From positions 1 through 39,139 of the forward strand of contig JAPLNP010000447.1 in assembly GCA_026401055.1 (NCBI GenBank): 39,139 nt of DNA, given 5' to 3'. The position numbers and the translations under genes are program-made. Shown here piece by piece: positions 1 through 32,762 of this stretch; position 1 is the first letter of the stretch, and each line of letters begins with the position of its first letter. The stretch is from Planctomycetia bacterium (GTDB lineage: Bacteria; Planctomycetota; Planctomycetia; Pirellulales; Thermoguttaceae). The notes under the pieces were generated by a model, which searched no databases, was not told the origin of the DNA, and saw only the letters and a list, made by a program, of their open reading frames with translations.

Positions 1-3000
1 TCAAGAACCACGTCGAGGGTGCTCACGAGGCTGACCGCATAGTCGCCCGCCGGTAGCACGCCGCCCGTCTTGACGAAGCTCAGCGTGTTGGTGACCTCGT
101 CCCACACGAGCGATCCCTGGATCCGCTCTTCCGTCGGCTTGCCCTCGTCCTTGATCACTCTGACGTCGGCCAGGTCCAAACCATAGTCGTTCGTGGCGTA
201 GAGGTACAACACACCGAGATTGATCGGGCGCGACGTTGTTGACCGTCAGGTCAAGTTGCCCCGCGCCCATGTGCGCGACGGGATCCTCCCCCGGGGCCTG
301 CTCGATGAGCGTGACGGTGATCGGCCCCACGGGAGTGCCGCCATTGTAGACGTTGTCGTCGTAGTAGTGCTGCTTGGCGCCCGCCGTGGTGTAGTTGCTG
401 CTGCTTCCGTCGCCCCACAAGACCACGTACTCGATGATCGGATCAGCACCCGGATCGGTGACGGCCCCAAGAGTGAGCGTGTACCACGCGCCCTCGTTCG
501 TCTCGTCGTTGCCCAAGAGGGCAATCGTCGGCGCGACGTCCGTCACCTCGATCGTCGCGGTCACGGTGTCGTACCCGCCGTCGTCGTCGGTGACCGTCAT
601 GGTCACGATGTACTCGGCGTCATCGTCGGGAGTAAACGAGAACGTCGGGTCCGATCCCTCGGCGTAAAGCACGCCATCCTTCGTCACCTGCCAGATGTAC
701 TCGAACGTGTCGTAGATGCCCGGATCGACGATCGAACTGGTCAACTCGATCAGCGTTCCCTCGGGGCTGGTCGCCGGAGCGCCGAGAATCGAAGGCGTCG
801 GCGGGACGTTGTCGACCGTCATCGAGACGCTACCCGTGTCGGCGTCGCCGTCGTTGTCGCGCAGACGCACGTTGATGTTGAACGTGTCGGAGGTCCCCGT
901 CGGGTTGTCGTCGGCGTAGAGGTGCTCCACGCTGAAGCTGCCGCCGGTGACGGTGACCGTCTGGTCGTAATCGCCGTCGCCGTCCCAGTCGATGTCCAAC
1001 TCGTGGGTATCGACCGTTCCGGCATCCGAGTAGGTGCCGCTGAGCGTCGCGGACTGACCCTCGTCGACCGGCGTCGTGACCTCCAGCGTCTCGACCACTG
1101 GCGCGACATTGCCGTCGGTCACCTCGAACGTGATCGTATCCGAGCCGTCGTCGTCGTCCTCGACGGTCACCGTGACGGTGTAGATGCCCTCGTCGGCGTA
1201 GACGTGACTGCCGTCGAAGGAGCCCTCGGTCGCGACGCCCGGGGAACCGGCCACGTCGATCGTCGGGCTGTCCGTGTCCACCGGCGTCCCGTCGTCCCAG
1301 TTGATCGTGTAGGTAAACGTCTCTTCCGTCTCGCCGCCGGTGTTCAGCGGATTGTCGAAGCCCGGATCGGTGAAGACGCCGATATCCTCGATCGACAACT
1401 CCGCGCCCTCGTCGATCGTTTGATCGTCGACCTCGTCGAGCGTCGGCGCGACGTTGGTGACGGTTACCTCGAAGGTCCGCACGTCGCTGCCGCCGTCGTC
1501 GTCCGTGACGGTGACGGTAACGGTATAAGTTCCATCGTCGGCATAGACGTGGCTGCCGGAGAACGACCCGGAGGTCGGAACGCCCTCGCTGCCCATCGCG
1601 TCGATCGTGGCGGCGTCCTCGTCGGGATCCGTGCCGTCGCCCCAGTTGATGCTGTAGGTGAACGACACGGTGTTGCTAAGGGCAACGTCAACAAATTCGG
1701 GATCGGTGAACGAGAAATCGCGGGCATACGTGTCGCCTTCGGCGATGCTCGCCGCGGAGTACCCGCCGATCTCAAGCGTGGGCGCCACGTTGGCCACGAC
1801 CACCTCGAACGTCCGGGTTGGGCTGAAGCCGTCGTCGTCGTGCACGGTCACCGTCACGGTGTACGTGCCGTTGTCGGCGTAGACGTGGCTGGCGTCGATG
1901 GTGCCGGTGGTCGGCACGCCTTCACTCCCCTGCGTAACGCCGCTGACGTCCAAGCTCATCGCCCAGTGACCGTCGCCCCAATCGACGTCGTAGGTGAACG
2001 TCTCCTCGGTGCCCGCCGCGACGTTCGTGAAGCCCGGATCGCTGAACGTCATCGTCTCCATGTTGAAGACCGAGCCCTCGTCGACGTACTGCAGCGGCGT
2101 CGGCTCGTCGAGCGTCGGCTCGACGTTGAGGATCGTGACGGCCTCCTGCCGGGTGTCGATGCCGTCGTCTTCATCCGTGACCGTCAACGTGACCGTGTAC
2201 TGGTCGTCCGCGTCGTCGTCGGCATAGGTGTGGGTGACGTCGTCGCCGACGGCCGAGCTTCCGTCGCCAAAATCCCACGTGTACGTCAGCGTGTCGTCGC
2301 CCGGATCGGTCGCGGCGGCGCTGAAGCTCAACTCCTCGCCCTCGTTGCCGCTGGAAACGTTCATTTCCCTGATCGTCGGGTCCGCGTTGTAGGCGTTGAC
2401 GGTCACCTCGTCCACCGCGGTGTTGCCCGCAGCATCCGTGACGGTGTAAGAGAAAACGTACGTCCCCTGATCGACCGGCGTGAAGCTCAGCGTATCGCCG
2501 CTGGCGTCATCCACCGACTGCCCGTTGGTGCTGCTCTCGAGATGCCAGAGTTCGTCATAGGGGCTGTAGCAGGGAATGGGATCGTCGAACTCCCCGACCA
2601 AGGTGGTCTCTTCCCCTTCGTAGACGTCTTGATCGACGCCCGCGTCGGGCACGGGGGCCTCGGTGTCGACGTACACCGTCAACGTCCCGGACACGCTGGC
2701 ATTGCCGGATGGATCGGTTGCCCGGGCGACAAGGTCGTGCCGTCCGTCAACCAGATGCGTGCTGATGATGCTCCAGTCGCCCGAGGGATCGGCGTAGATG
2801 GTTCCCAGAACCGTGTCGCCCTCCATCAGGTCCACCGTCGCGCCCGCTTCGGCCTTGCCGGTGAACTCGGGCGTGTCGACGTTGGTGATGTTGTCGTCGT
2901 CGAGGTAGCCCGAGTCCGAATCATCCGCGAGATCCGGATCGGAGACGGTCGGTGAAGTCGAATCCAGATCGCCTGGCTGGAAGCCGGCGACCACGGGCAG

Positions 3001-6000
3001 GTAGTCGGGCGGCGTCGTGTAAGAATTGTGGTCCGTCCCGTCGGTCAGCCACGGGGCAACGATCACGCTACCTGCCACTGCGCCGCCCTTGGGCGTGCCG
3101 GCCCATGTATTCAACGGCGTATCGGGGCCGTTGTCGCTGCCCCACCAGTTGCCGGAGGCGTCGATCGGACCCAAACTGGGCGTGCCGATCACGTTGACCG
3201 CGTTGGCTCCGTTCGCCAAAACGCCGTCGCCGAAGTGGTTCTCGGAGATCTGGATGCCGGTAATGAAGTCCACGGGGTTTTCACGGACGCCGGGGGAGGG
3301 AGGATTGCCGGTGTAGTAAGACTCGTTCAAATCCACGCGAATGCCGTCCCACGGCTGATAGCCGTCGCCGAGGTCCCCGTTGTTCTGGATGAAATTGTTC
3401 GTAATGGCGATGTTCTTCGTCTTCGGGCCGATGTAGATGCCGTTCTTCTCGTTGCCGGTGATGGTGTTCCCGATAATCGTGATATCCTCGATCGACTGGG
3501 CCAACTCGCTGAGATCGCTCCCGTCGCGGATCAACGCGATGCCGTTGCCGTACTTGAGGTTGTCGGCGTCCGCACTGTTCTTGCCGCCGTTATCCGTGAT
3601 CAGGTTGTTGGAGATCGTGACGTCATGCACCTTTCCGGCGAATTCGATGCCCGAACGATGATTTCCGGTGATCTCGTTATTGCTGATCAGCGATCCCTCG
3701 AGATTTCCAGCCGAGACGACCGGCGGATACTGTTCGTTGTCCTCGGGCCCCCACAAAAACACGCCGTCGCCATTGCCCAAGGCGTCGAACACCTTGTTGT
3801 CTTCGATGTTGACCTTGGTCGCGTAATCGTGACCGCTGACATAGACTCCGAATCGACCCTTGGAGCCGTCCTGTGAGCCCATATTCGTGTTTGGTCCGAT
3901 GACGTTGTTCCGGATGTGCAAATCCGTTATCGTTTCGGCGGGCAGAACATAGACCAAGTGGGCGGTATTGAAACCGCCTGTTTCGAATGCCTTGAGGTTG
4001 GCAACGACAAAGCCGTCGAAGGTGACGTCGTTCGCCGAGATGGTGACTACGGAGGCGTTCTCCGATCCCGTCGGTTCGAGGATGATGGTCTCGGTCTCGT
4101 CGTCAAAATCATAACCGGAGGGAACTTCGTAGCCTTTCTTGCTCACGCCGGAGGACGCCCCGAGAAGAGTGAGAGCCCTATCGACAACGATACGCTCTTC
4201 GTAGGTCCCCTCCTCGACGTTGATGGTCCAGCCGCCCGAGGTGAGATTGATGGCGCGTTGGATGCCGTGGTCGGTCCCGCCCTCCGTGACGAAGAGCGTG
4301 TCGTCCACCCAAGTGATAAGGCCGGCGGCCGTGTTGTCGTCGTCGAGCAGGTGGTGCACCTTGTCTTCGATGCGGAAGTCGTCCGTTTCGTCGAAAGTAT
4401 TGCCGGTTCCCGCCAGATCGTAGCCCTCGCCGGACTGGTTGTCGATGAAGAACGTGTCGCCGGCGAAGTCGTTGCCGGCGCCGAGGGTCACCTCGCCGGC
4501 CGAACTGGCCAGCAACAGATCGGTGGCGTTGTCGTTGGCGCCGTCGCCGGGCGCGCCGTCGTCGAAGTCGTTGTCGGCCAGATCGGTGACGCTGCCGCCG
4601 TTTTGCAGGCGGATGCCGGCCGTGCTGTTGTCGTAAACGTGGTTGCCGGTGACCGCCGCGGTGCCGCCGTCGACGTCGATGCCGATGGCGTTGCCGTGGA
4701 TCGAGGCGGAGTTATCGGTAATGGTCGCGCTGGCGCCGCCGCCGCGGACGAGGATGCCGGTCCCGCCGCCGGATATCTCGTTGTCGCCGTCAATGGTCGC
4801 GTGGTTGGTGAACCCGGTCGTCGGATCGCTGTCGATCACAACGCCGTACGCCAGGCCCGTGATCGTGTTGCCGGTAATCGTCGTGTCCGTATCGTAGATT
4901 ATCTCGACGTTGGTGAGGTCCCAATCCGGTCGGTTGCTGATCGCGATGCCCACGCCCTCCGGAAACGCCGTGCTGGTGCTGCCGGTGGAGATGATCGTGT
5001 TGCCCGAGATCACGTTCGGCACCGGAACGCCGTCGACGCCGCGTCCCACGAGGATGCCCAGGTCGGCGCCGTCGAGGTAGATGTGGTTGTCGCTGATCGT
5101 CGTTCCCGCCGAGCCGGCGAGGAAGACGCCCATGTTGTCGGCGCCGCCGGTCTCGAAGTGCATCGTGTTGCCGGAGACCACGCTCGCGGCGTCGGTGTTG
5201 TAGAGGCGAAGCCCTCGCGCGGAGTCGCCGAAGTTGCTCATGGTGTTGCCGACGACGCTGACGGTTGCGTCCGTGTTCTGGTGATAGTGGTAGATACCCT
5301 CCGGGATCCACGCGTATCCCAGGTCGAGCGGTCCGTAGTACGAGTTCGCCGTTCCGGCGATATTCTCGATCGTGTTGTAGTTGATGGTGACGGGATCGGA
5401 ACCGGTGTACCACGCCACGTAGATTCCGCCCGAAGCGTTGCGGATCTCGTTATGGCTGTAGTCGCCGGTGCCCCTGCTGCGGATGGCGTTCTTGTAGACG
5501 ACGTTGTCGATGGTCGACCAGGTGACCTCGTGGCTGGCGCCGGAGTTCGACTCGAAGTTGATGCCGTACACGTAAGTGTTCAGGACGGACACGTGGTCCA
5601 CGTGCGTGTTGCCGCGCGATGGATTGTAGATGCCGACGCGGTAGTTGTTCTTTCCGGGGGTCAGGTCCAAGTTGCCTTGTCCGTCCAAGGTGACATTTTG
5701 CACGGTCACGTTGTCGCTTTGAATATGCAGGCCGTACTGTACGACTCCGCCCGTGGGCGATGGCAGGTTACCATCCTCTCCCGCCGGCACGATCTTCACG
5801 TCCTCTTGCGATTCGCCGTCGATGGTAAGGGCATGATCGATGACGATGTTGGATTCGCGGTACGTTCCCGACGCGACGTTGACGGTCCAGTTCTCCGCGG
5901 CGGCGTTCACCCCGCGCTGGATGCTCGGGGCGCCGGTGCCCATGAACGGGGAGTAGCTGCCGGGCGTGACGTACACGTTCTCGGCGACCAACAGCACCAA

Positions 6001-8331
6001 TCCGGCCGTGCCCGTGGCGCTGAGCGGCGCCGCGGTGAACGCCGGTCCGTCGATCTTGTGGAGGATCGCGTCTTCCAAGGTGAACTGGTCCGCCAGGTCC
6101 GGATCGTTCGTGGCGATGCCGTCGATCGTGTTCCCGACCGCGGCGGTCAAGTCCCAGGTATCCGCCCCGGCATGGGCGATGGCGGCCAGCCCGGAGCCGT
6201 CGATCGCGTTGCCCGAGAACTCCGTAAACAGCCCGGCGGCATCCTGCATCAGCAGCACGCCCACGCCGTTGCCGGAGACCGTGTTGCCGACGACGGTCAG
6301 ATCCGACGAGACCGGCCGGTTCGCCGCCGGAGCGAAGGCCAGTCCCACGCTGAACGCGTAGCCGCTGACCACGTTGGCTTTGAGAGGATCGATCTGGTGT
6401 TCTTCGTCGAAGCCGCCGATGGTGACGCCGACGAACTGCCCGCCGATGCCGGCGCCGTCGGAGCCGACGTAATCGCGCACCACGTTTCCGGCGATCTCGG
6501 AGTCGACCAGATAGCCCGTGTTGCCATACCTGGCATTGACGACCTCGTTGTCGCGGATCGCGGCCACGGTGGCGACGTCGTCGCCGGTCGATGCGGTCCC
6601 TCGGTCGTCGCCCGCGGTGATGCCGCTGGTGCCGACGCCGACAATGAGGTTCTGCTCGATCGTGCCGCTGGCGGCGCGCCAGAAGTTGATGCCGTCCGCC
6701 GCGGCGTTGACCACGTAGTTGTTGCGGACGACGACGTTCGCGGCGCCGTCCTCCTTGACAACGTGGATGGCCTTCGTGGTGTTGGCGAACTCGAAGCCGT
6801 CGATCGTCACGTTGTCGGCGGCGACGCGGAACGTCCCCTGGTCGCCGTCGCTAAAGCCCGGGCTAATGATGGTTTCGCCCGTCAGGGTATCGCGCGAGCG
6901 GGCATCCTGGCCCTGCTTGGCGCCCAGCAGGGTCACGCTCTTGTCGATGGTGACGACTTCCTCGTACGTGCCCGCCTTGACGTACACGGTGCTGCCGGAA
7001 ACAAGGTCGATGGCCTCCTGGATGCGGCCGACGTCGCCGGTTTGCGGGCTGTCGTCGTCGACGTTCAGGTAGGAGAAGTCGCCCTGGAAACCGTTGGTCG
7101 GATCCGCGCCGAGGTCCGTTCCCGAGTTCAGCCACGGGGTGAAGTCCACGCCGTCGCTGACGCCGGCCCCGCCGCCCGAGTAGACACCGCCGGGCCCGGA
7201 GGCGTCGCCCCACCAGTTGCCCGAGGCGTCGACCGTGACGGCGGTCTGGTTGTCCAGGCCCAGAGTGCTGTCGAGGCTGTTGTAGCGGACGGCCAGGCCG
7301 GTCGGCGCCGCGCCGCCGTCGTAGGTGCCCACTTGGACGGCGATCAGATTACCGTCCAGGAAGTTATTCTCGACGACGGCGTTGTCGGAGCCGTTGCCCA
7401 CCCACAGTCCCACGTCGCTGGCGGTGACGGTATTGCGGAGGAGTTCGTTGTCGGTGGAGCCGCCGTCCAGGGCGATGCCCCAGCCGTCGCCGTTGCCGGT
7501 CGTCACGCCGCTGACGCGGTTTTCGATCAAGTCGTTGTCCGCCGAGGCCCACAGATAGATGCCGTTGCTGGCGGCGCCGGAAATCGTGTTCCCGCGGACG
7601 GTGCTCTTCGAGGCGTTCTCCAGATCGATGGCATTCCAACCGGAGGTGGAGATGACGTTGTCCTCGATGGTGGCGTGGCTGGCGTTGTAGAGCTTGATGC
7701 CGGCGACGTTGCCGGTGATCTGGTTGCCCTCGTCGACGGTCACGTAGTCGGAGGAGCTGATCATCACGCCCATGTACCCGGCGCCGATCGTGTTGTGCGC
7801 GACGGTTCCGGTCGCGCCGAAGGCGACGACGATGCCGACCTCGTCGCCGTCGGCCTCTGAGGCATTGCGGTTCACCGTGTTGTCGCGGATCACCACGTCG
7901 GGATCGTTGCCCGCGCCGAGGTCCCCGTAGGCGGCGATGCCGTTGATGGTGTGGCTGACGACGTTGTTCTCGACGCTCAACAGGGAATCGCCCAGGATGC
8001 GCACGCCCGTGGCCGAGGGGTCGTCGCCGCTGAAGCCCTTGACCTCGCTGTCGAAAAGGCCGGCGTCGGCGGCGGTGGCGCCGCGGACGTTGCTCAACAG
8101 CACGCCCGTGTAACGGTCGTGTTGGTGGATCTGGCCGCCGGCATCGATGGTAAAGCCGCTGATGGAGACGCTGATGGGAGCGCCGGACGACGTCGCGGCG
8201 ACCACATAGTCGCTCACCCAAGGGGTCGATCCGGTGGCGCCGGCGGCGCCGAGGTGCGTGCCGATAGGAGCCTGGATGAACGTGTCGGCCTTGCCAGCGC
8301 CGAGCAACGTCAAGGACTCCTGGATCGTCAC
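1..8331 (-). CDS. Giant secreted beta-helix/PKD protein, C-terminal portion (continues from 8332-11955; frameshifted near its end)
   Basis: This frame continues the 8332-11955 frame after a single TAG; the GTG at 8331 is just the codon after that stop and has no ribosome site, so it is probably not a start. Order from N to C: the rest of beta-helix module 4; modules 5, 6 and 7, which open with entry motifs ending LTLLGA or LTIDGES near 6900, 5830 and 4150; SGNWWG caps near 7220 and 3150; one Ig-like domain (about 2660-2900); then about eight PKD domains (about 250-2660) with WGDG/FGDG and HVYAD motifs. The formal stop at 3..1 is probably not real. At the GGG of 226-228 the frame is lost, and the neighbouring frame (INLGVLYLYATNDYGLD, later FVKTGGVLPAGDY) stays open for about 75 codons to the window edge. 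FVKTGGVL-type segments are, from memory, typical of planctomycete giant exported proteins near their C-terminus. Likely an adhesin or matrix protein; no catalytic residues were recognised. Confidence 0.85.
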   Translation of the reverse strand: MTIQESLTLLGAGKADTFIQAPIGTHLGAAGATGSTPWVSDYVVAATSSGAPISVSISGFTIDAGGQIHQHDRYTGVLLSNVRGATAADAGLFDSEVKGFSGDDPSATGVRILGDSLLSVENNVVSHTINGIAAYGDLGAGNDPDVVIRDNTVNRNASEADGDEVGIVVAFGATGTVAHNTIGAGYMGVMISSSDYVTVDEGNQITGNVAGIKLYNASHATIEDNVISTSGWNAIDLENASKSTVRGNTISGAASNGIYLWASADNDLIENRVSGVTTGNGDGWGIALDGGSTDNELLRNTVTASDVGLWVGNGSDNAVVENNFLDGNLIAVQVGTYDGGAAPTGLAVRYNSLDSTLGLDNQTAVTVDASGNWWGDASGPGGVYSGGGAGVSDGVDFTPWLNSGTDLGADPTNGFQGDFSYLNVDDDSPQTGDVGRIQEAIDLVSGSTVYVKAGTYEEVVTIDKSVTLLGAKQGQDARSRDTLTGETIISPGFSDGDQGTFRVAADNVTIDGFEFANTTKAIHVVKEDGAANVVVRNNYVVNAAADGINFWRAASGTIEQNLIVGVGTSGITAGDDRGTASTGDDVATVAAIRDNEVVNARYGNTGYLVDSEIAGNVVRDYVGSDGAGIGGQFVGVTIGGFDEEHQIDPLKANVVSGYAFSVGLAFAPAANRPVSSDLTVVGNTVSGNGVGVLLMQDAAGLFTEFSGNAIDGSGLAAIAHAGADTWDLTAAVGNTIDGIATNDPDLADQFTLEDAILHKIDGPAFTAAPLSATGTAGLVLLVAENVYVTPGSYSPFMGTGAPSIQRGVNAAAENWTVNVASGTYRESNIVIDHALTIDGESQEDVKIVPAGEDGNLPSPTGGVVQYGLHIQSDNVTVQNVTLDGQGNLDLTPGKNNYRVGIYNPSRGNTHVDHVSVLNTYVYGINFESNSGASHEVTWSTIDNVVYKNAIRSRGTGDYSHNEIRNASGGIYVAWYTGSDPVTINYNTIENIAGTANSYYGPLDLGYAWIPEGIYHYHQNTDATVSVVGNTMSNFGDSARGLRLYNTDAASVVSGNTMHFETGGADNMGVFLAGSAGTTISDNHIYLDGADLGILVGRGVDGVPVPNVISGNTIISTGSTSTAFPEGVGIAISNRPDWDLTNVEIIYDTDTTITGNTITGLAYGVVIDSDPTTGFTNHATIDGDNEISGGGTGILVRGGGASATITDNSASIHGNAIGIDVDGGTAAVTGNHVYDNSTAGIRLQNGGSVTDLADNDFDDGAPGDGANDNATDLLLASSAGEVTLGAGNDFAGDTFFIDNQSGEGYDLAGTGNTFDETDDFRIEDKVHHLLDDDNTAAGLITWVDDTLFVTEGGTDHGIQRAINLTSGGWTINVEEGTYEERIVVDRALTLLGASSGVSKKGYEVPSGYDFDDETETIILEPTGSENASVVTISANDVTFDGFVVANLKAFETGGFNTAHLVYVLPAETITDLHIRNNVIGPNTNMGSQDGSKGRFGVYVSGHDYATKVNIEDNKVFDALGNGDGVFLWGPEDNEQYPPVVSAGNLEGSLISNNEITGNHRSGIEFAGKVHDVTISNNLITDNGGKNSADADNLKYGNGIALIRDGSDLSELAQSIEDITIIGNTITGNEKNGIYIGPKTKNIAITNNFIQNNGDLGDGYQPWDGIRVDLNESYYTGNPPSPGVRENPVDFITGIQISENHFGDGVLANGANAVNVIGTPSLGPIDASGNWWGSDNGPDTPLNTWAGTPKGGAVAGSVIVAPWLTDGTDHNSYTTPPDYLPVVAGFQPGDLDSTSPTVSDPDLADDSDSGYLDDDNITNVDTPEFTGKAEAGATVDLMEGDTVLGTIYADPSGDWSIISTHLVDGRHDLVARATDPSGNASVSGTLTVYVDTEAPVPDAGVDQDVYEGEETTLVGEFDDPIPCYSPYDELWHLESSTNGQSVDDASGDTLSFTPVDQGTYVFSYTVTDAAGNTAVDEVTVNAYNADPTIREMNVSSGNEGEELSFSAAATDPGDDTLTYTWDFGDGSSAVGDDVTHTYADDDADDQYTVTLTVTDEDDGIDTRQEAVTILNVEPTLDEPTPLQYVDEGSVFNMETMTFSDPGFTNVAAGTEETFTYDVDWGDGHWAMSLDVSGVTQGSEGVPTTGTIDASHVYADNGTYTVTVTVHDDDGFSPTRTFEVVVANVAPTLEIGGYSAASIAEGDTYARDFSFTDPEFVDVALSNTVSFTYSINWGDGTDPDEDAATIDAMGSEGVPTSGSFSGSHVYADDGTYTVTVTVTDDDGGSDVRTFEVTVTNVAPTLDEVDDQTIDEGAELSIEDIGVFTDPGFDNPLNTGGETEETFTYTINWDDGTPVDTDSPTIDVAGSPGVATEGSFDGSHVYADEGIYTVTVTVEDDDDGSDTITFEVTDGNVAPVVETLEVTTPVDEGQSATLSGTYSDAGTVDTHELDIDWDGDGDYDQTVTVTGGSFSVEHLYADDNPTGTSDTFNINVRLRDNDGDADTGSVSMTVDNVPPTPSILGAPATSPEGTLIELTSSIVDPGIYDTFEYIWQVTKDGVLYAEGSDPTFSFTPDDDAEYIVTMTVTDDDGGYDTVTATIEVTDVAPTIALLGNDETNEGAWYTLTLGAVTDPGADPIIEYVVLWGDGSSSNYTTAGAKQHYYDDNVYNGGTPVGPITVTLIEQAPGEDPVAHMGAGQLDLTVNNVAPDQSRCVVPLRHERLWFGPGRRQSDQGRGQADGRADPGIARVGRGHQHAELRQDGRRATGGRLCGQPREHPRRGS
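226..228 (-). other. Probable 1-nt frameshift at a C run (GGG on +)
   Basis: Up to this point the coding frame reads LTVNNVAP, a normal PKD-type boundary. Beyond it the annotated frame turns into Arg/Gly-rich nonsense (RHERLWFGPGRR). Removing one base of the three-base run restores a sensible frame, INLGVLYLYATND and onward, which stays open to base 1. Sequencing error or real mutation cannot be told apart here. Confidence 0.7.
3165..7233 (-). repeat. Intragenic repeat unit 2 (about 4.1 kb)
   Basis: This unit carries modules with openings ending GAKQGQDAR, DGESQEDV and LLGASSG, in the same order as unit 1, and is bounded by DASGNWWG caps at about 7203-7233 and 3134-3164. The boundary phrase GFQGD followed by QTG..GRIQE is also shared by both units. 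Confidence 0.65.
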
Positions 8332-21277: not shown

Positions 21278-24200
21278 ATGCACCGCATGTTCGGAGTGTC
21301 CCGTCGCGGGCGATCGGTCCGCCCAGCATCCCATCACGCCAGACACGGATCCAACCCTGCCGCAAGCCGCCTGCTCTACCATCGCCCGTTGCGGTTGGAG
21401 TACCTCGAGGACCGCTCGCTCTTGAGTCTCGCGCCGACCGGTGTGGATCTCCTGCCCGGCAGCGACTCAGGCATTCTCGACGACGACAACCTGACGAACC
21501 GCGACAACAGCTCGGCGGAAACGGCCCTCGACTTCGCCGTCTCCGGCACGATCCCCGGCGCGATCGTCACACTTTACGCCGACGGGATCGCCATCGGCAG
21601 TCAGATGGCCACCAACGCCGTGACCACCATCACCACCGACGGCGCCCAGGTCCTTGCTGACGGCACTCACGCAATCACCGCCCGGCAAACCGAGCCGGGC
21701 GATACGGAGTCGGGCAACTCACCGGGACCAATTGTGACGATTGATGCGGCCGGTCCGACGCAGGTTGAACCGCCTGTTGAACAGATCGCCAAGCTTCGGG
21801 CGGGCGATGGTGCCGCGGATGACAATTTTGGCTGCTCCGTTTCCATCAGCGGCAGCACGGCAATCATCGGCGCGTCGCGCGACGATGACCACGGCATCGA
21901 TTCCGGCTCAGCTTACGTTTTCGAAGATACTGGCTCGGGCCGGATCCGGGTTGCCAAGCTCAGTCCCGACGACGGTGAACCGGGGGACCATTTCGGCAAA
22001 TCCGTTTCGATCAGTGGAAGCACGGCGATTGTCGGGGCCGAAGGCGACGATGCCCTGGGCAGCTTCTCCGGTTCCGCCTACATCTTCCAAAGGAGCGCTT
22101 CGGGCTGGATCCAGGTTGCCAAGTTGACGGCCGACGACGGAGGGGCGGACAAGTACTTCGGCGGCTCTGTTGCGATCTGTGGCACGACGGCGATTGTCGG
22201 CGCGCACCGTGACGACGACTTCGGCAGCTCCACCGGTTCGGCCTATATCTTCGAGGACATCGGTTCCGGCTGGACCCAGACTGCCAAGCTAACGGCGACC
22301 GACGGCGCTGGCGGGGACTACTTCGGCTGGTCCGTTTCGGTCACCGACGGCAGGGCACTTGTCGGGGCGTATGGCGACGACGATCTCGGCAGCGTGTCCG
22401 GTTCGGCTTATGTCTTCGAGGATACCGGCTTGGGCTGGACCCAGATTGCCAAGCTGACAGCCGGGGACGGGGCGGCGAATGACGTAGTTGGCTGGTCCGT
22501 TTCGATCAGCGGCAGCAGCGCGATTGTTGGGGCGTATGGCGACGACGACCTCGGCAACTCCGCCGGATCGGCCTATATCTTCGAGGATGTCGGTTTGGGC
22601 TGGTTGCAGGTTGCCAAACTGACTGCCGACGACGCAGCTTCGAATGACAGGTTCGGCTGGAGCGTTTCGATCAGCGGCAGCAGGGCTATTGTTGGGGCAG
22701 TCTACGACGATGACCTTGGAAGCTCGTCCGGTTCGGCCTACATCTTTGAGAACATCGGGGCAGGCTGGATGCAGGTTGCCAAGCTGACCACCAGTGACGC
22801 AGCGGCGACTGATTACTTCGGAAGCGCCGTCTCAATCTGCGGCCGCACGGCGATCGGCGGAGCCACTGGGGACGATGCCCCCAGCAGCAATTCCGGTTCG
22901 GCATATCTCTTCGACGATGCGAGGCAGCTGGACGAAGATACCGGCGCCAGTGTTCACGACCGGGTGACGAATGACACCACGCCCGAGCTCGTATTCAGGT
23001 TTGCCGAGGCTGTCTACGGTGAGAATAGCGACGTGGTCGTGCTCGATCCGAATGGCGATCCGGTGACGCCGGACTCCGTTGCGGGCTGGGGGAGCAACGC
23101 TCTAACATTGACCTTCGCCACGCCTCTCACTGTCGATGGAGAGTACTCGGTGACGCTCCGCGGGGCGAGCACGATCACCGACACGGCCGGTAACCCGCTG
23201 AACGATGGTGTTGACGAACCCGTGACGTTCACGTTGGACACCGTGGCGCCGGCCGCCCCGACCGCACCCGATCTCGCGTCCCTGAGCGACACAGGCGTCA
23301 GCGATACTGACAATCTGACCAACCGTACCATGCCCAAGTTGGACATCACCGCGGCACCGTACTTTCGTGTGTATCGCGACGGCACTCAGATCAGCCTTGA
23401 TTACGAGAGTGGGACGAGATACGCGGACGCCGGCGTGGCAGACGGCACCTACGAATACACGGTTACCGCCATTGACGCGGCGGGCAACGAGTCTGGCGCG
23501 AGTGCCGTGCTGAACGTGACAATCGACACCCAGGCACCCACCGCATCGCCCGCCCTCGATCTGCAACCCGGCAGCGATAGTGGCATCGACGGAACGGACA
23601 GGATTACCAGTGACAGCACGCCTACGTTCGACGTTGATACCGCGTCCTACTTCCGCATCTACCGCGACGGCGTCCGCATCAGTGGCGATTTCGAGAGCGG
23701 CTCGATCTACACGCCGTTCAGCCAGCGCGACGGCACATCCGATTACACTGCCCGTGCCGTTGACACCGCGGGGAACGAGTCGCCTCCGGGCAAGGCGATT
23801 CGCGTGACGATCGATACGTTAGGACCCATGCAACTCCTGGAACAAATTGCCAAGCTGGTGGCCAGCGACGGCGCGGCGGCTGATTATTTTGGCTGTAGCG
23901 TTTCGATCAGCGGGACGAGGGCAATCATCGGGGCGGATCTCGACGATGACGGGGGAACGTCTTCCGGTTCGGCCTACATCTTCGAGAACACCGGCGACGG
24001 ATGGATCCAGGTCGCCAAGCTAACCGCCGACGATGACGCGGCAGACGACTACTTCGGCTGCAGCGTTTCGATCAGCGGGACGAGGGCGATCATCGGGGCG
24101 GATCTCGACGATGACGGGGGAACGTCTTCCGGTTCGGCCTACATCTTCGAGGACACCGGCGACGGATGGATCCAAGTCGCCAAGCTGACCGCCGACGATG

Positions 24201-26251
24201 GCGCGGCAGCCGACCACTTCGGCCATAGCGTTTCAATCAGCGGGAACACGGCCGTTGTCGGCGCGCACGGCGACGATGACGATGGCGACGACTCCGGTTC
24301 GGCCTACGTCTTTGAGGACACCGGCTCGGGCTGGACGCAGGTTGCCAAGCTGACGGCCAGCGATGGGACGGCGAGTGATTACTTCGGAGGCTCCGTCTCG
24401 ATCTGCGGCCATACGGCCGTCGTCAGTGCCTACGCCGATGATGACGATGGCGACGAGTCCGGTTCGGCCTATATCTTCGAGGACACCGGCGACGGATGGA
24501 TCCAAGTCGCCAAGCTGACCGCCGACGATGGCGCGGCAGGCGACTCCTTCGGCGACAGCGTCTCGATCAGTGGGACTACGGCCATTGTCGGCGCATGCTT
24601 CGACGATGACCATGGTCTCAGTTCCGGCTCGGCCTACGTCTTCGACGACACCGGCTCAGGTTGGAGCCAGGTTGCCAAGCTGATGGCCGACGATGGGGCG
24701 GCGGGCGATTACTTTGGCAGCTCGGTATCCATCAGCGGCGACACGGCGATCGTCGGCGCGTGCTTCGACGATGACTATGGCCTCGGTTCCGGCTCCACTT
24801 ATGTCTTCAAGGACACCGGCTCCGGTTGGACCCTCGCTGCGAAATGGACAGCTTCGGACGCAGCGCACGGTGACGTCTTCGGCGGCGCCGTCGCGATCAG
24901 CGGCAGCACCGCCATCGTTACGGCACGCGGCGACGGTGACCTCGGCGACGGTTCGGGGTCAGCGTATGCCTTCGACGTTGCACCGCGACTGAGTGACGAT
25001 ACCGGCGCTAATGATCAAGACCGAATGACGAGTGACGCGACGCCCGAATTGACTGTCATGTTCATCGAGTCGGTCTACGGCCAGGATAGTGACGTGGTGG
25101 TGTCAGATCCGAACGGGAATCCGGTGACGCCGGATGCGATTGCGGGCTGGGGAAGCGACGCTCTGACCGTCACGTTGGACACGCCGTTGACCGTCGACGG
25201 GGACTACACCGTGATACTCTGTGGGACGGGCACGCTGACGGACGCGGCGGGCAACCCGATCAATAATGGTGCTGACGAGATCGTGACCTTCATGCTGGAT
25301 ACCGTCGGACCGGCCGTTGAATCTGTCCTTGTCAAGGGAACCGCCTGGACGGACGAGTTCCTGGACTACTTGGACGCCGAGGGACTCGGACATCCCGATG
25401 TGGCGCGGCTGGGGTATCGCGTACCGATGGGCATCGGACAACTTGACGCGCTGCCCTTGGGCAACTTGGATCAGATTACGATCGTCTTCGACGAGGATGC
25501 CATGGTCGGCCAGGACGACGTCGGGGTTTCCGGCGTCAACGTGGCGGGATATGCCGTTGCGGATTTCAGCTATGACGCCGCCACGCACGCGGCCATGTGG
25601 ACGCTGGCGCAGCGGCTCGATACGGATAGGGTTTCGATCACGCTCGACGGCACGGTGGAGGACTGGGCGGGCAATACGCTCGGGGGCGGCGGGTTCGACT
25701 TTGCGATGAACGTTTTGCCCGGCGACGCGAATCACAGCGGCAGGGTGGATGACGCCGACGCGGCGATTCTGGCGGCGCATTGGTCGTCGTCGGGAGCAAC
25801 CCGTCACGGCGATTTCAACGGGGACGGACTGGTGGACGATCGGGACGCTTCGATTCTGGGAGCCCATTGGCGGGCGATGTTGCCGTCGCCGAGTGAAGGG
25901 GGTCGGCCGGATGTCCCGCCGCCGGTCGAGCCGGTTCCGCCGGGCGGGGCGCCGTTGATTGGTCCCGTCTTGCTCGGCACGCCCAACCCAAGCCGCCGGC
26001 GGATCGAGCCCGTTCCGGCGAGCCGTGCCGCGGGCGAAGCACGCTCCGAGGCCGCTCTGTCCGCGCAGGTCGCCGCCCGGGACGCCGTGTTCGCCGAGTC
26101 AGGCGACAGCGGCCCCGACGGCGAGACGGAGTTGTTGCGGCACCGGCTGGCGTGGTCCTACGAGCTTGCCCAAGTGCAAGGCCGAAAGCGTCACGCAAGC
26201 GTGAAATCCGGCAGCCTTTCGATCGCGCCGCCTTGGGTGGCGGACTGGTGA
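21278..26251 (+). CDS. Giant secreted protein with two seven-bladed FG-GAP propellers, Ig-like domains and dockerin
   Basis: The protein has 1,657 residues. ATG 21278 follows AAGGAG (21265-21270). Residues 40-50 are LEYLEDRSLLS. An Ig-like segment opens with LLPGSDSGILDDDNLTN. Propeller 1 (about 166-547) has seven blades of about 55 residues, each with a GSAY.F motif after an acidic DDD.G stretch, typical of FG-GAP repeats that bind calcium. Ig-like domains lie at about 548-848, propeller 2 at about 851-1237, again seven blades, and another Ig-like domain follows with the same DTGA....DR.T.D.TPEL opening as after propeller 1. A planctomycete C-terminal module (about 1347-1480) precedes a dockerin (GDANHSGRVDDADAAILAAHW and GDFNGDGLVDDRDASILGAHW, about 1481-1535). 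A Pro/Arg-rich tail ends the protein. The 3' end overlaps the convergent oxidoreductase gene by 61 bp. Likely a surface adhesin; the ligand is unknown. Confidence 0.9.
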   Translation: MHRMFGVSRRGRSVRPASHHARHGSNPAASRLLYHRPLRLEYLEDRSLLSLAPTGVDLLPGSDSGILDDDNLTNRDNSSAETALDFAVSGTIPGAIVTLYADGIAIGSQMATNAVTTITTDGAQVLADGTHAITARQTEPGDTESGNSPGPIVTIDAAGPTQVEPPVEQIAKLRAGDGAADDNFGCSVSISGSTAIIGASRDDDHGIDSGSAYVFEDTGSGRIRVAKLSPDDGEPGDHFGKSVSISGSTAIVGAEGDDALGSFSGSAYIFQRSASGWIQVAKLTADDGGADKYFGGSVAICGTTAIVGAHRDDDFGSSTGSAYIFEDIGSGWTQTAKLTATDGAGGDYFGWSVSVTDGRALVGAYGDDDLGSVSGSAYVFEDTGLGWTQIAKLTAGDGAANDVVGWSVSISGSSAIVGAYGDDDLGNSAGSAYIFEDVGLGWLQVAKLTADDAASNDRFGWSVSISGSRAIVGAVYDDDLGSSSGSAYIFENIGAGWMQVAKLTTSDAAATDYFGSAVSICGRTAIGGATGDDAPSSNSGSAYLFDDARQLDEDTGASVHDRVTNDTTPELVFRFAEAVYGENSDVVVLDPNGDPVTPDSVAGWGSNALTLTFATPLTVDGEYSVTLRGASTITDTAGNPLNDGVDEPVTFTLDTVAPAAPTAPDLASLSDTGVSDTDNLTNRTMPKLDITAAPYFRVYRDGTQISLDYESGTRYADAGVADGTYEYTVTAIDAAGNESGASAVLNVTIDTQAPTASPALDLQPGSDSGIDGTDRITSDSTPTFDVDTASYFRIYRDGVRISGDFESGSIYTPFSQRDGTSDYTARAVDTAGNESPPGKAIRVTIDTLGPMQLLEQIAKLVASDGAAADYFGCSVSISGTRAIIGADLDDDGGTSSGSAYIFENTGDGWIQVAKLTADDDAADDYFGCSVSISGTRAIIGADLDDDGGTSSGSAYIFEDTGDGWIQVAKLTADDGAAADHFGHSVSISGNTAVVGAHGDDDDGDDSGSAYVFEDTGSGWTQVAKLTASDGTASDYFGGSVSICGHTAVVSAYADDDDGDESGSAYIFEDTGDGWIQVAKLTADDGAAGDSFGDSVSISGTTAIVGACFDDDHGLSSGSAYVFDDTGSGWSQVAKLMADDGAAGDYFGSSVSISGDTAIVGACFDDDYGLGSGSTYVFKDTGSGWTLAAKWTASDAAHGDVFGGAVAISGSTAIVTARGDGDLGDGSGSAYAFDVAPRLSDDTGANDQDRMTSDATPELTVMFIESVYGQDSDVVVSDPNGNPVTPDAIAGWGSDALTVTLDTPLTVDGDYTVILCGTGTLTDAAGNPINNGADEIVTFMLDTVGPAVESVLVKGTAWTDEFLDYLDAEGLGHPDVARLGYRVPMGIGQLDALPLGNLDQITIVFDEDAMVGQDDVGVSGVNVAGYAVADFSYDAATHAAMWTLAQRLDTDRVSITLDGTVEDWAGNTLGGGGFDFAMNVLPGDANHSGRVDDADAAILAAHWSSSGATRHGDFNGDGLVDDRDASILGAHWRAMLPSPSEGGRPDVPPPVEPVPPGGAPLIGPVLLGTPNPSRRRIEPVPASRAAGEARSEAALSAQVAARDAVFAESGDSGPDGETELLRHRLAWSYELAQVQGRKRHASVKSGSLSIAPPWVADW
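23887..24220 (+). repeat. 165-bp near-identical tandem blade repeats
   Basis: Two adjacent blades are almost identical at DNA level with period 165 bp (GATCAGCGGGACGAGGGC at 23905 and at 24070, and a long matching stretch after each). A further block of about 60-70 bp starting near 24145 recurs at about 24475, which is 330 bp (two periods) downstream. Confidence 0.85.
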
Positions 26252-27560: not shown

Positions 27561-27731
27561 GGTGTTGCCGGTTTCTCGGAAGACAACGGTTGATCCGCTT
27601 GGGTGTTCGGCTTGGGTTTGCCGAGAGTTCGGTTGTGAGCTAACCTTTCGCTGGTGGGGCACTCGTTTTGTTCGGGCCGCCGCGCCGGTGTTCGTTTCGT
27701 TCCCGCACGTTCGCCAGAAGGTGGCCGTCCC

Positions 27732-28667
27732 ATGAAAGCCGCGGAGTTTCCCTCGGTCGATCTGCGTGAAATCTTCCGGGCCGGCCAGTTGCCGGCGATG
27801 CCGCAAAGCGCGCTGAGGCTGTTGAACGTGTCCCGCGATCCCGACAGCGGGCCGGCCGAGTACGCCACGGTCATCGAAGTCGATCCCGGCTTGACCGTGC
27901 AGGTGTTGCGATTCGTCAATTCCTCGTACTTCGGCTTCCGCCACGAGGTCTCCAACGTCAAACAGGCCATCACCCTGGTCGGCGTGCGGACGATCAAGAA
28001 CTTCGCGCTTTACAGCGCGATCTTCAGCATGATCCCCAACCCCAAGTGCGGCGCGTTCGATCTCGCCAAACTCTGGCAAGACTCGCTCCGCCGCGGATTG
28101 TTTGCCCGGGCGATGGGCCGCATGCTGGGAATGCGGGATGCCGAAGAGCCGTTCGCCGCGGCCCTGTTGCAGGACATGGCCGTTCCCTTGCTGGCCAAGG
28201 AAGTCCCGGTAGCTTACGCCAAGCTGTTCGGAGCGCAAGGCAAGGCGGCGTACCAGGTCCGGCTCTCCCGGCTGGAGGAGCACGTCTTCGGGTGGACGCA
28301 CGCCGAGGCCGCCGGCATCATGGCCCGGCAATGGGATCTGCCCGAGGCCTTCGCCGTGCTGATCGAGGACCATCTGGACGTCGAGCGGTGGTCGGCGCAC
28401 GCGGACAGCGAGCCGGGCAAGCTGGCCGTTTCGCTTTCGGCCCTGCTGCCGATGACCCCCGATACGGCCTGGCCCGAGTATCGCGCGTTCGAAAAGTACT
28501 TCGACAAGGCGCGCCCGGCGAGGGGGCCGTCGATCGAGGAGTTGCTCGGCGAGGTGGACCGCCAATTCGCCGACTTCGCTCCGTTGCTGAAGATCGCGGC
28601 GCCCGGCAAGACGCTGGTCGACCGCTACCACGAGGCGGCCGGCCACGAAGCGGTCGAAAGCGTTTGA
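27732..28667 (+). CDS. HDOD-domain protein
   Basis: The protein has 311 residues. The ATG at 27732 is preceded by AGAAGG; the frame is open further upstream to 27654 but without a ribosome site. The HDOD domain fills about residues 10-210: LPAMPQSALRLLNVSRDPDS, then VIEVDPGLTVQVLRFVNSSYFG, VSNVKQAITLVGVRTIKNFAL and AALLQDMAVPLLA are the usual blocks. HDOD proteins are relatives of HD hydrolases that generally lack the metal-binding HD pair and act in signalling, chemotaxis, motility or stress adaptation. No receiver, GGDEF or EAL domain is attached, and there is no signal peptide. It is convergent with the NtrC-like gene, 42 bp away. Function within this cell unknown. Confidence 0.88.
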   Translation: MKAAEFPSVDLREIFRAGQLPAMPQSALRLLNVSRDPDSGPAEYATVIEVDPGLTVQVLRFVNSSYFGFRHEVSNVKQAITLVGVRTIKNFALYSAIFSMIPNPKCGAFDLAKLWQDSLRRGLFARAMGRMLGMRDAEEPFAAALLQDMAVPLLAKEVPVAYAKLFGAQGKAAYQVRLSRLEEHVFGWTHAEAAGIMARQWDLPEAFAVLIEDHLDVERWSAHADSEPGKLAVSLSALLPMTPDTAWPEYRAFEKYFDKARPARGPSIEELLGEVDRQFADFAPLLKIAAPGKTLVDRYHEAAGHEAVESV

Positions 28668-28715
28668 CGCCGGATGGCGCCCAGCGCGCTCGGTCGTGGC
28701 CGCCGGCGTTCAAAC
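28662..28715. repeat. Inverted repeat between convergent genes, containing both stop codons
   Basis: GTTTGACGCCGG (28662-28673) pairs with CCGGCGTTCAAAC (28703-28715) with one bulged base. The HDOD stop TGA (28665-28667) is in the left arm, and the complement of the other gene's stop (TCA, 28710-28712) is in the right arm. There is no T run, so any terminator role would be bidirectional and weak. Confidence 0.55.
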
Positions 28716-30230
28716 CACGTCGCGAAGATCGTACTGCTTGATCTTGTTGTAAATGGTCTTCTCGCTGACGCCGAGCTTCCTGGCGGTCTTGGCCTTGTTG
28801 CCGTCACACGCCTGCATCGTCTCGATAATCGCGTGGCGCTCGATCTGGGCCAGGGTGAACCCCGCCAACCCCATGCCGCACCCGTCGGCTTGCGGACGGT
28901 CGGCGGGCAGCCCACAAGGCCGGGCAAGGTTCTTCCGCGTGATCGTCGAACCGTGGCTGAGCGCAAACGCGCGGTCCAGGACGATTTCCAGTTCCCGGGC
29001 GTTGCCGGGCCAACTGTATTGCTGCAGGGCCTTGACGGCATCCGGGGTGAGATCCGGCGCGGGACATCCGCGTCGCCGGGCGATCCGCAGCAGGATCGCC
29101 GCCGCGATGTCCGGAATGTCCTCGATGTGGTCCTTCAACAGCGGCATCCGCAGCGAAAGCACGTCGAGCCGGAACAGCAGATCCTCGCGCAGCGTCCCTT
29201 GACGGCACAAGACCGCCGGGTCCTCGGTCGTCGTGGCGATCACGCGAACGTCCACTCGCGAGGAGACTCCCGTGTCCGCGCGACACGCCGTCCGGTCTCG
29301 CAGCAGGTGGAACAGCCGGACCTGGAGGTCCGCCGGCAGTTCGCCGATCTCCTCGAACAGAAGCGTCCCGCCGTCGGCCAGTTCGACGCGGCCGGGCCGT
29401 TCGAGCCCCGAGACGCCGAGGTTCCCTCGCGTCTGTCCGAACAACTCCGCCTCGATCGCGTCCCGGGGCATGACGCCGCAATGCAGCACGACGAACGGCT
29501 TTTCCGCGCGGGCGCCGTGGGCGTGGATCCAACGCGCGACGGTGGTCTTGCCGGTGCCGGCGGCCCCGGTCACCAGCGTGTTGGAATCCAGCCGGGCGAA
29601 CGTGTCGATCTGCTGTCGCAAGGCGTGCATGGCCGGCGACTTGCCCGTGACCGCAACGTCCTCCGTCGGACAACTGATCGCCCGGCGCAGCCCGCGATTC
29701 TCCTTCGCCAGACGCGCCAGCCGGGTAGCCTCGCGGACCCGCGCGAGCAACTGCTCGGGATGGCAGGATCGCGTGAAGCACTCGAAGGCGCCTTCCTTCA
29801 TGGCCGAGACGACCTCGGGAACGTCGCCCATCCTCGAAATCAGGATCACCGGCACGTCGGGATAATGGTTCTTGACGTGGCGGAGGCAATCGCGGCCGGA
29901 GAGCTCAGGCATGGCCAGGTTCGCGATCAGCAGGTCGACGTCGCTGGACATCGCCGCCAGCGCGGCGCGACCCGTCTCGGCTTCGATGACGCGGTAGCGG
30001 GCCGCTTCGAGAAGCCGGCGCAAGGTCTGTCTGGCCGCATTTCCCTCGCCGGCAACCAGCACGAGCGGCCCTTCGCCGGGCGCGCCGGCCGCGTGGGCGC
30101 TTGTGGGTCCGGAGAGCGCTTCGACTCCTAAGTCCGCCCGACGAACCTCGACTCGGCCTCGAATACCGCTCACTTGGGTGTCGGAAGAGACGGCCGTGGG
30201 CGCGTCGGCGCCCTGGCATAGACTTGCCAT
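28710..30230 (-). CDS. NtrC-like AAA+ regulator with degenerate receiver domain and no GAFTGA
   Basis: The protein has 506 residues from ATG 30230, chosen because AAGGGG lies eight bases upstream. The frame runs on to GTG 30416, which would add 62 low-complexity residues. The receiver (about 54-170) lacks the acidic pair (VAGEG where VDDE is usual), carries Asn104 at the phosphoacceptor position (IANLAMPELSG), and has Arg in place of the conserved Lys (FTRSCHP), so it should not be phosphorylated normally. The AAA+ domain has Walker A GAAGTGKT (222-229) and Walker B LFEEIGE, with Glu for the usual Asp at about 293. The sigma-54 contact loop GAFTGA reads GNLGVS (269-274). The C-terminus is a Fis-type helix-turn-helix (NKAKTARKLGVSEKTIYNKI). 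It probably regulates without activating sigma-54 holoenzyme. Targets unknown. Confidence 0.9.
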   Translation of the reverse strand: MASLCQGADAPTAVSSDTQVSGIRGRVEVRRADLGVEALSGPTSAHAAGAPGEGPLVLVAGEGNAARQTLRRLLEAARYRVIEAETGRAALAAMSSDVDLLIANLAMPELSGRDCLRHVKNHYPDVPVILISRMGDVPEVVSAMKEGAFECFTRSCHPEQLLARVREATRLARLAKENRGLRRAISCPTEDVAVTGKSPAMHALRQQIDTFARLDSNTLVTGAAGTGKTTVARWIHAHGARAEKPFVVLHCGVMPRDAIEAELFGQTRGNLGVSGLERPGRVELADGGTLLFEEIGELPADLQVRLFHLLRDRTACRADTGVSSRVDVRVIATTTEDPAVLCRQGTLREDLLFRLDVLSLRMPLLKDHIEDIPDIAAAILLRIARRRGCPAPDLTPDAVKALQQYSWPGNARELEIVLDRAFALSHGSTITRKNLARPCGLPADRPQADGCGMGLAGFTLAQIERHAIIETMQACDGNKAKTARKLGVSEKTIYNKIKQYDLRDVV

Positions 30231-30781
30231 GAGTTCTGCCCCTTGGGTTGTGTCTGCCGCGCGATTTCCAGCGGCGGCGATCCACGTGTCGCCCGAATCG
30301 AGGCACGCGAGCCACGGCGCGCGTGCTTGCCGTGCGAGTCGCTCTTTCGCGCGGGGGCCGACCAGCAGTGGTCGTGAGAGCATGGGCGGGCTGGCCGTGG
30401 CGCTACCGCCACGCACGCTTCCCGCCGACTGCCCCAGAGTCCATCCGTCCGGTGAATCAACGGATGTCCGTCTGCCCCGAAACCCGAAAGCGTGGACGCA
30501 CGCGATTCCAGGCCGCGCCGGGTCGGCAAGAATGACCCCGCCAACCGCAACGCTTCACTAATGCTCAATATCGGAATGTCGCGGCCCGCCCAACACCGCA
30601 ATCATAAACAGGGCAGTCTGTTCCGGTCGAAGCGATTGCGAGGACGAGACACCGGACGTTACCGCGGAGGCGAGAGTTGTCCCCAAGGGCGTTGCCCCAG
30701 GCGAAAAGGGCGCGGCGGACATCGGCGGCGACGCAGCCACGCCCTTTCAGCGATCTTCTTCGGGGCGTGCGATCCCGCGGG
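30231..30781. other. Intergenic region upstream of the NtrC-like gene and downstream of glmS
   Basis: No convincing gene was found. It contains a 7-bp stem CGTGGCG/CGCCACG with a 4-nt loop (30396-30413) and a 7-bp inverted repeat CACGCCC/GGGCGTG (30738-30744 / 30763-30769) just past the glmS stop, without a T run. If the NtrC-like protein starts at 30416, 30231-30416 is coding. Confidence 0.4.
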
Positions 30782-32483
30782 TCACTCGACGGTGACGCTT
30801 TTGGCCAGGTTTCGCGGCTTGTCGACGTCGCAGCCCCGGCAGACGGCGATGTGGTAGGCCAACAGTTGCAGCGGAATGATGCTGACGATCGGCTGCAGGA
30901 ACTCCTCGACCGCGGGAATCTCGATCACGTCGTCGGCCAAGTCGGCCGCCACGGTGTCGCCCTCGCCGACCACGGCGATCACCGGGCCGCCCCGGGCCTT
31001 GATCTCCTGAAGGTTCGCCATCACCTTGTCGTAAACCAGGCTGTGCGGCATCAGGAACACGCTGGGCGTGTTGCGGTCGACCAGCGCGATCGGTCCGTGC
31101 TTCATCTCCGCCGCCGGATAGCCTTCGGCGTGAATGTAGCTGATCTCCTTGAGCTTGAGCGCCCCTTCGAGCGCCGTCGGAAAATTGAACTGCCGGCCGA
31201 GGTACAGAAAGTTGTTGCACCGGGCGTACTTCTCGGCGATCCGCCGCACTGCATCGTTGGTGTCCAGCGCGGCGCGGACCTTGTCGGGCAGGTTCTGCAA
31301 CTGCTGGATCACGCGCATGCCGGCGTCGAAACTCAGGTGGTGCAGCCGCCCGAAATACAAGGCCAGCAGGCTGGTGACGACGCACTGCGACGTGAACGCC
31401 TTGGTCGACGCGACGCCGATTTCCGGACCGGCGTGCAGGTAGATCCCGCCGTCGGCCTCGTTGGCGATCGTGCTGCCCACGACGTTGCAGATCGACAGCG
31501 TCGGATGCCCCTTGCGCTTGATCTCGCGCAACGCCGCGAGCGTGTCGGCCGTTTCGCCGCTTTGGGTGATGAAGATGGCGGGGCGCCAGGTTCAACCCGC
31601 CCAGCTTCGCCGTGGCGGCGTCCAGGTCGAGCCGTCCCCGCATGGCGTTGGCGATCGACTCGGGCTGCTCGAAGATCTCTTTGAGCATGAAGTGATCGTA
31701 CCCGCCCGTGTCGACGTCGCCCGACTGAAGATCGAGCACCTTGACGCTGTGCTTGACGTGTCCCTGATCGCGGTGGATGACGCGCAGCGAGTTGGCGGTG
31801 ATGACGGCTAGTTCGTGGTCGGCCAGGAAAACGATCTTGTCGGTTCGGCCGGCAAGGGGCGACGTGTCGCTGGCGACGAAATGCTCGCCGGCGCCGACCC
31901 CGACAATCAGCGGACTTCCCCGCCGGGCCGCAATCATCACCTCCGGATAGTCGCGAAACAGGATCGCCAGGCCGAAAGTCCCTTGCAGTTGCGCCAGCGC
32001 CGCCTGCACCGCTTCGATCAGCGGCTCGTAGGTCCCGGCCGCCGAGCCGCGCGCCGGCGGCTGCTTGGCGAGACAACTGGCCACGAGATGGGCGATCACC
32101 TCGGTGTCGGTCGCCGAGGCGAAGTGGTATCCCTCGGCCTCCAGCCGGCACCGCAGCGACAGGAAGTTCTCGATCACGCCGTTATGGACCACGGCCAGCA
32201 CCCCGTCGCCGCCGAGGTGCGGATGGGCGTTCGCCACGGTAGGGGAGCCGTGCGTAGCCCAGCGGGTGTGGCCGATGCCGATTCGCCCCGGCGTGGGCGT
32301 TTCGGCTTCCTGCCGCACAAGTTCCTCGATTCGACCGACACTCTTGGCTAAAGCGAGATAACCCCCGGGCGTAATCGTTGCCACGCCCGCGCTGTCGTAT
32401 CCCCGGTACTCGAGCCGTCGCAGGCCGCCAATGAGGAAATCGACCGCCTCAGCCGCCCCGACGTATCCGACGATTCCACACAT
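30782..32483 (-). pseudogene. glmS: glmS, glutamine--fructose-6-phosphate aminotransferase, with internal deletion and frameshift
   Basis: GlmS makes glucosamine-6-phosphate from fructose-6-phosphate and glutamine, the first step to UDP-GlcNAc. The start ATG 32483 gives MCGIVGYVG with the catalytic Cys2; GGGGA lies upstream. The glutaminase domain is intact (RRLEYRGYDSAG, GHTRWATHG, HNGVIENF) through GGYDHFMLKEIFEQPES and AKLGGLNLAP (about codon 300). It should then read through the CGTS and ASEFRYR region of the first SIS domain. Instead it jumps, in another frame, to AIFITQSGETADTLAAL (from about 31579), and the second SIS domain is intact to NLAKSVTVE. About 55-60 codons are missing at 31577-31590. 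As written it cannot make the isomerase. It is either a broken copy or an assembly error in what is normally an essential gene. Confidence 0.85.
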
Positions 32484-32762
32484 GGCATTCCCCAAAAGAG
32501 TTATACTATTTTTTTCCAGGGATGGGATGTGAAAGTGTAGCATAACCGCGCAGCCGGGGGCGGCCGGGCCACATTGTCATTATGTCGCCAATCGGGCGGG
32601 ACTATCCTGGATTCTCATGGTTCGTGACACGGCGGAACACGACGATCCTCGGACCGCCGTTCGGCGTCTGGCAGCGGCGGCTTGGGGGAGGTAACCTATA
32701 TCGACTGCAACGGGCCGATCGGGCGCATCCCCCGGCACGGAATCCCACGCGAGGAAACACCC

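Follow-up and report, generated by a model that had tools for sequence, protein, structure and literature searches.

The protein encoded at positions 28710-30230 of the minus strand in contig JAPLNP010000447.1 of a Planctomycetia bacterium (the window, that is, the whole stretch of 39,139 nucleotides analysed here) has lost both the phosphate switch of its receiver and the sigma-54-contacting loop of its AAA+ domain. We think it probable that this protein is an orphan NtrC-family transcription factor, which descends from a kinase-controlled sigma-54 activator but is now independent of both. Judging from its sequence, it is NtrC-type by architecture, carries a pseudo-receiver by definition, and is a non-sigma-54-activator by motif.

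The original prediction had delimited this open reading frame and recognized its NtrC-like domains correctly, as confirmed by Pfam and by comparison with homologues. The gene encodes 506 amino acids from an ATG at 30230. The enclosing open frame (28710-30416, minus strand) begins with a GTG at 30416, yet similarity to homologues sets in near the ATG, which, together with AGGGG-type sequences 8-9 nt upstream in both the window and the related genome G083, makes the ATG the likely start. Pfam domains follow in the order Response_reg (29733-30062; E-value 4.5e-18), Sigma54_activat (29151-29648; 6e-43), AAA_lid_14 (28920-29132), and HTH_8 (28731-28856; 5.5e-14), all on the minus strand, which is the NtrC-type architecture of receiver, AAA+ domain, lid, and Fis-type helix-turn-helix (HTH). 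The top NCBIfam model was NtrC, with a score of 283 bits where the curated cut-off is 559, and the protein fell below the cut-off of every equivalog shown by NCBIfam. The nearest solved structure by sequence was Aquifex NtrC1, and the nearest by fold were NtrX, NtrC1, FleQ, and VpsR. Group I NtrC-family bEBPs such as NtrC1 and NtrX thus provide the best sequence and fold matches, with the same domain order and a retained Walker A motif, but the phosphosite, acidic pair, and Lys are changed and GAFTGA is lost in the window protein.

The receiver fold is recognised by Pfam and confidently predicted, with pLDDT mostly over 90 in the structure model, and alignment with canonical receivers gave G-E / N / S / R at the five catalytic positions, versus the canonical D-D / D / T / K. 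In VAGEG (30042-30056, minus strand), D12 is replaced by Gly (GGC) and D13 by Glu (GAG). In IANLAMP (29907-29927, minus strand), the phosphosite D54 is replaced by Asn (codon AAC at 29919-29921). T82 is Ser (TCG), an ordinary alternative at the Thr position, and K104 is Arg (CGA), followed by Ser in place of the conserved Pro, in CFTRSCH (29760-29780, minus strand), which lies within EGAFECFTRSCHPE. A pseudo-receiver is defined by the absence of at least one of the five conserved residues, and the aspartate-less kind by the absence of the phosphosite Asp (PMC12632262); as read from the alignment, the window receiver is of the aspartate-less kind. This definition is broad, and the receiver of the window differs from pseudo-receivers in general in sitting in an enhancer-binding-type protein without the sigma-54 loop.

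A pseudo-receiver on a retained receiver fold, with Asn for the phosphoacceptor Asp, was what the original prediction had proposed, and both points stand. It had also reported the acidic pair and the Lys as lost, which is true of the first acid and of the Lys but not of the second acid, which survives as Glu. To describe all catalytic residues as substituted was slightly overstated, because the Glu is still an acid and the Ser is normal at its site; in addition, the alignment places the Lys position at the Arg of FTRSC, not at the Ser.

The two closest relatives of the window protein are encoded in independent genomes. That of G261 (contig JAFGFF010000249), which is ~60% identical, has the receiver S-E / N / S / R, and that of G083, which is 60% identical, has G-E / D / S / R and so keeps the phosphosite Asp. 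The window receiver is 59-67% identical to the receivers of these two proteins, a level of conservation similar to that of the AAA+ domain. A sequencing error or a pseudogene as the source of the receiver changes was ruled out by the independent genomes and by dN/dS (see below).

The stretch EGAFECFTRSCHPE is identical in these three closest members and variable among sister receivers, and all 15 clade rows have a Cys two residues past the Lys/Arg position. Because Cys-based redox switching is known in the pseudo-receivers RitR and HP1021 (PMC12632262), these residues raise the idea that the pseudo-receiver senses redox state or a metal, and that in it the conserved Cys-x4-Cys-His of CFTRSCH takes the place of the phosphate switch. 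We consider this distinctly unlikely, since the His and the Cys-Cys-His combination are limited to three sequences, and the second Cys is found in canonical relatives too (KPC). It seems very unlikely that the clade exchanged phosphate for a Cys/His redox or metal switch in the receiver and that its AAA+ ring came to serve oligomerisation independently of sigma-54. We treat the cluster of Cys and His residues around beta5 as no more than a lead.

The output side of the protein is also changed. The L1 loop of the AAA+ domain (29394-29438, minus strand) is of unchanged length, but its sigma-54-contacting GAFTGA motif reads GNLGVS (within 29406-29426), and the two closest relatives have GDPTRP and DDVTQH. 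Variants of GAFTGA are usually inactive with sigma-54. In the genome of the window, a GAFTGA-type motif was found in 13 of the 16 AAA+ proteins compared, and of the three without it only the window protein matches the receiver part of the model; the other two (L015 and L016, on contigs C34 and C161) are distant AAA+ proteins. Walker A and both arginines of RxDLxxR are retained in the window protein, and Walker B reads E-E through an Asp-to-Glu replacement that is shared with G261. As Walker A and the catalytic Glu are retained, ATP use may still matter in the window protein. Walker B reads D-H in members of the genera g40 and g43, and the Walker-B Glu is gone in g40, g43, and g42.

These observations bear on the possibility that the input alone was changed, in other words, that sigma-54 activation persists through an altered L1 loop while the pseudo-receiver, as in FleQ, is either locked in the on state or controlled by a partner. 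The intact Walker A, Walker-B Glu, and RxDLxxR arginines, the unchanged loop length, and the presence of rpoN and many canonical enhancer-binding proteins in the same genome would fit such a protein. However, neither the window protein nor G261 has the Phe and Thr at the centre of GAFTGA, the three closest members have loops wholly different from each other, as for a loop freed from selection for sigma-54 contact, and the remaining clade is also without GAFTGA, with the Walker-B Glu lost besides in the three genera named above. We therefore regard a change in the input alone as unlikely. The original prediction, which had missed the loss of GAFTGA, was right in its interpretation of a pseudo-receiver but dealt with the input side, and the output has changed too.

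FleQ resembles the window protein in having an atypical receiver outside phosphate control, together with AAA+ and HTH domains, and it acts at different promoter types. It differs in keeping GAFTGA and in binding c-di-GMP. Of the c-di-GMP-contacting residues of FleQ, R144 in the linker aligns with Val and R185 with Arg in the window protein. The lack of conservation of R144 speaks against FleQ-like c-di-GMP binding, although the window protein may still bind c-di-GMP.

Relatives were searched for in the relatives, order, family, and phylum sets and in GTDB contigs. Seventeen genomes, all from the Pirellulales family of the window itself, carry such a protein, and beyond this family all matches from a draw across the phylum were weaker, with up to 38% identity (compared by identity only). 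In a tree from which the receiver, L1, and Walker-B columns had been removed, the 10 distinct full-length family rows used grouped together, set apart by a single branch from a mostly canonical sister clade (bootstrap 97, SH-aLRT 91; 98% of 200 bootstrap trees). Two of the family loci, with an incomplete receiver end (L072 and L074), were excluded from both the tree and the residue table. None of the 15 clade rows in the residue table has an intact acidic pair or a GAFTGA motif, while Asn at the phosphosite occurs in only two of them (the window protein and G261), the other rows keeping Asp. Phylogeny had been suggested as a way to see whether the Asn form is a conserved trait of a clade; it is the loss of the acidic pair, not Asn, that is constant. 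The phosphosite Asp is still in place in G083 and in the majority of the clade, so that residual phosphorylation may occur in members other than the window protein.

In the sister set, drawn from families f16 and f6, 9/11 rows have the catalytic receiver residues, as do all canonical rows compared, a common D-N variant of the acidic pair aside. The two exceptions in the sister set, L073 (G179) and L081 (G023), have degenerate receivers whose residues were lost independently, with GALGGA and GAFTSA, respectively, in the L1 loop. Other sister rows show small L1 variants (GAFTDA in L060 and L061, GAFQGA in L062).

The window protein has lost several positions that are invariant elsewhere, and the g40, g43, and g42 proteins are further gone, as might be seen if the regulator had become dispensable and the domains of a decaying gene were eroding. 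The selection analysis contradicts decay, which we consider extremely unlikely: the frames are open throughout, dN/dS is below 1 in every domain, and the HTH is nearly frozen. Among the three closest members, dN/dS is 0.23-0.29 overall and 0.05-0.06 in the HTH, these values being rough because dS is near or above 1. Within genus g40, dN/dS is ~0.01, with no amino-acid change in the HTH in the pairs compared, and members of g40 and g43, although only 40-45% identical in the receiver, share an HTH that is 100% identical. The HTH is the best-conserved part of the protein and under the strongest purifying selection, indicating that DNA binding is the function that selection preserves most.

An HDOD gene (27654-28667, plus strand) is oriented convergently to the regulator gene, which lies downstream of the glmS locus. 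The original prediction had stated that no sensor kinase is nearby, and indeed no histidine-kinase domain was found in the open reading frames of the window that were scanned (the 2776-aa frame at 1-8331, minus strand, not among them), nor was a kinase gene found among the adjacent clade genes examined. No gene neighbourhood is conserved across the clade: the HDOD gene is not beside the relatives, a CheW-REC-Hpt gene is the neighbour in G261, and unrelated genes are found elsewhere. In the sister set, the gene adjoins a hybrid histidine kinase in G272 and an Hpt-domain protein in G384, which fits a kinase-coupled ancestor; the other sister members examined had no kinase among the neighbours scanned. 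Neither a target gene nor a binding site was found: in the upstream regions of eight lineages, palindromes and dyads such as would mark an autoregulatory operator were shared no more often than in shuffled sequence. Elsewhere in the window, the glmS locus (30782-32543, minus strand) is split into two frames, a glutamine amidotransferase part and then SIS domains, with a break near 31580, around which, by comparison with GlmS, a stretch seems to be missing; this is either an assembly error or a broken gene. The 1657-aa product of a gene at 21278-26251 (plus strand) combines 14 FG-GAP repeats and Big domains with a dockerin-type region at its C terminus.

The gene for sigma-54, rpoN, is present in the genome of the window and in 25/27 genomes tested, and the two genomes without it are 76% and 65% complete. 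Loss of sigma-54 therefore does not explain the change, and rpoN loss was rejected as its cause, although rpoN is lower-scoring in genus g40. In the g40 genomes (G131, G166, G285, G291, G334, G392, and G153), rpoN scored 140-149 bits, compared with 176-215 in other genera, and enhancer-binding-protein candidates were few, as if the sigma-54 system were relaxing there.

NtrC of Caulobacter and of Rhodobacter capsulatus, HupR, VpsR, TyrR, and DhaR likewise descend from sigma-54 activators and have a lost or defective GAFTGA (PMC10274813, PMC3162934). In the Caulobacter and R. capsulatus NtrC proteins the loop was lost by deletion, whereas in the window protein it was lost by substitution at constant length. 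Activation of the Caulobacter and R. capsulatus NtrC proteins reportedly depends on the phosphosite Asp, which the Vibrio protein is also reported to use (PMC10274813); in the window protein, unlike in these relatives, the receiver is disabled too. Published relatives without GAFTGA either activate or repress sigma-70 promoters (PMC10274813, PMC3162934). By analogy with HupR, Caulobacter NtrC, and VpsR, the window protein is most likely an orphan regulator independent of phosphorylation and sigma-54, acting as a repressor or in a sigma-70-type manner. No paper on planctomycete proteins like this regulator was found in our literature search.

The two losses, together with the preserved HTH, point to DNA binding that is free of phosphate control and to an absence of sigma-54 polymerase remodelling. 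In the orphan regulator that we propose, an ancestral kinase-controlled sigma-54 activator would have lost its dependence on both phosphate and sigma-54. The present protein would bind DNA at fixed sites, probably in a dimeric or oligomeric form that would be held together by the conserved alpha3-beta4 and beta5 regions of the pseudo-receiver and possibly by ATP. At the bound sites it would repress or activate sigma-70-type promoters. Its activity would be set by its abundance, its oligomer state, or a protein partner or ligand, instead of phosphate; a ligand or protein partner as the replacement signal, which the original prediction had favoured, is a plausible candidate.

Separate NtrC relatives are known that have lost either phosphate control or the sigma-54 loop, and here the two losses are combined in one conserved lineage whose close relatives are still canonical. 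The clade and its sisters form a natural series from a kinase-driven sigma-54 activator to what is probably an independent regulator, in which it may be followed which domain functions survive. For members of this clade, the automatic label "sigma-54-dependent response regulator" would probably mislead.
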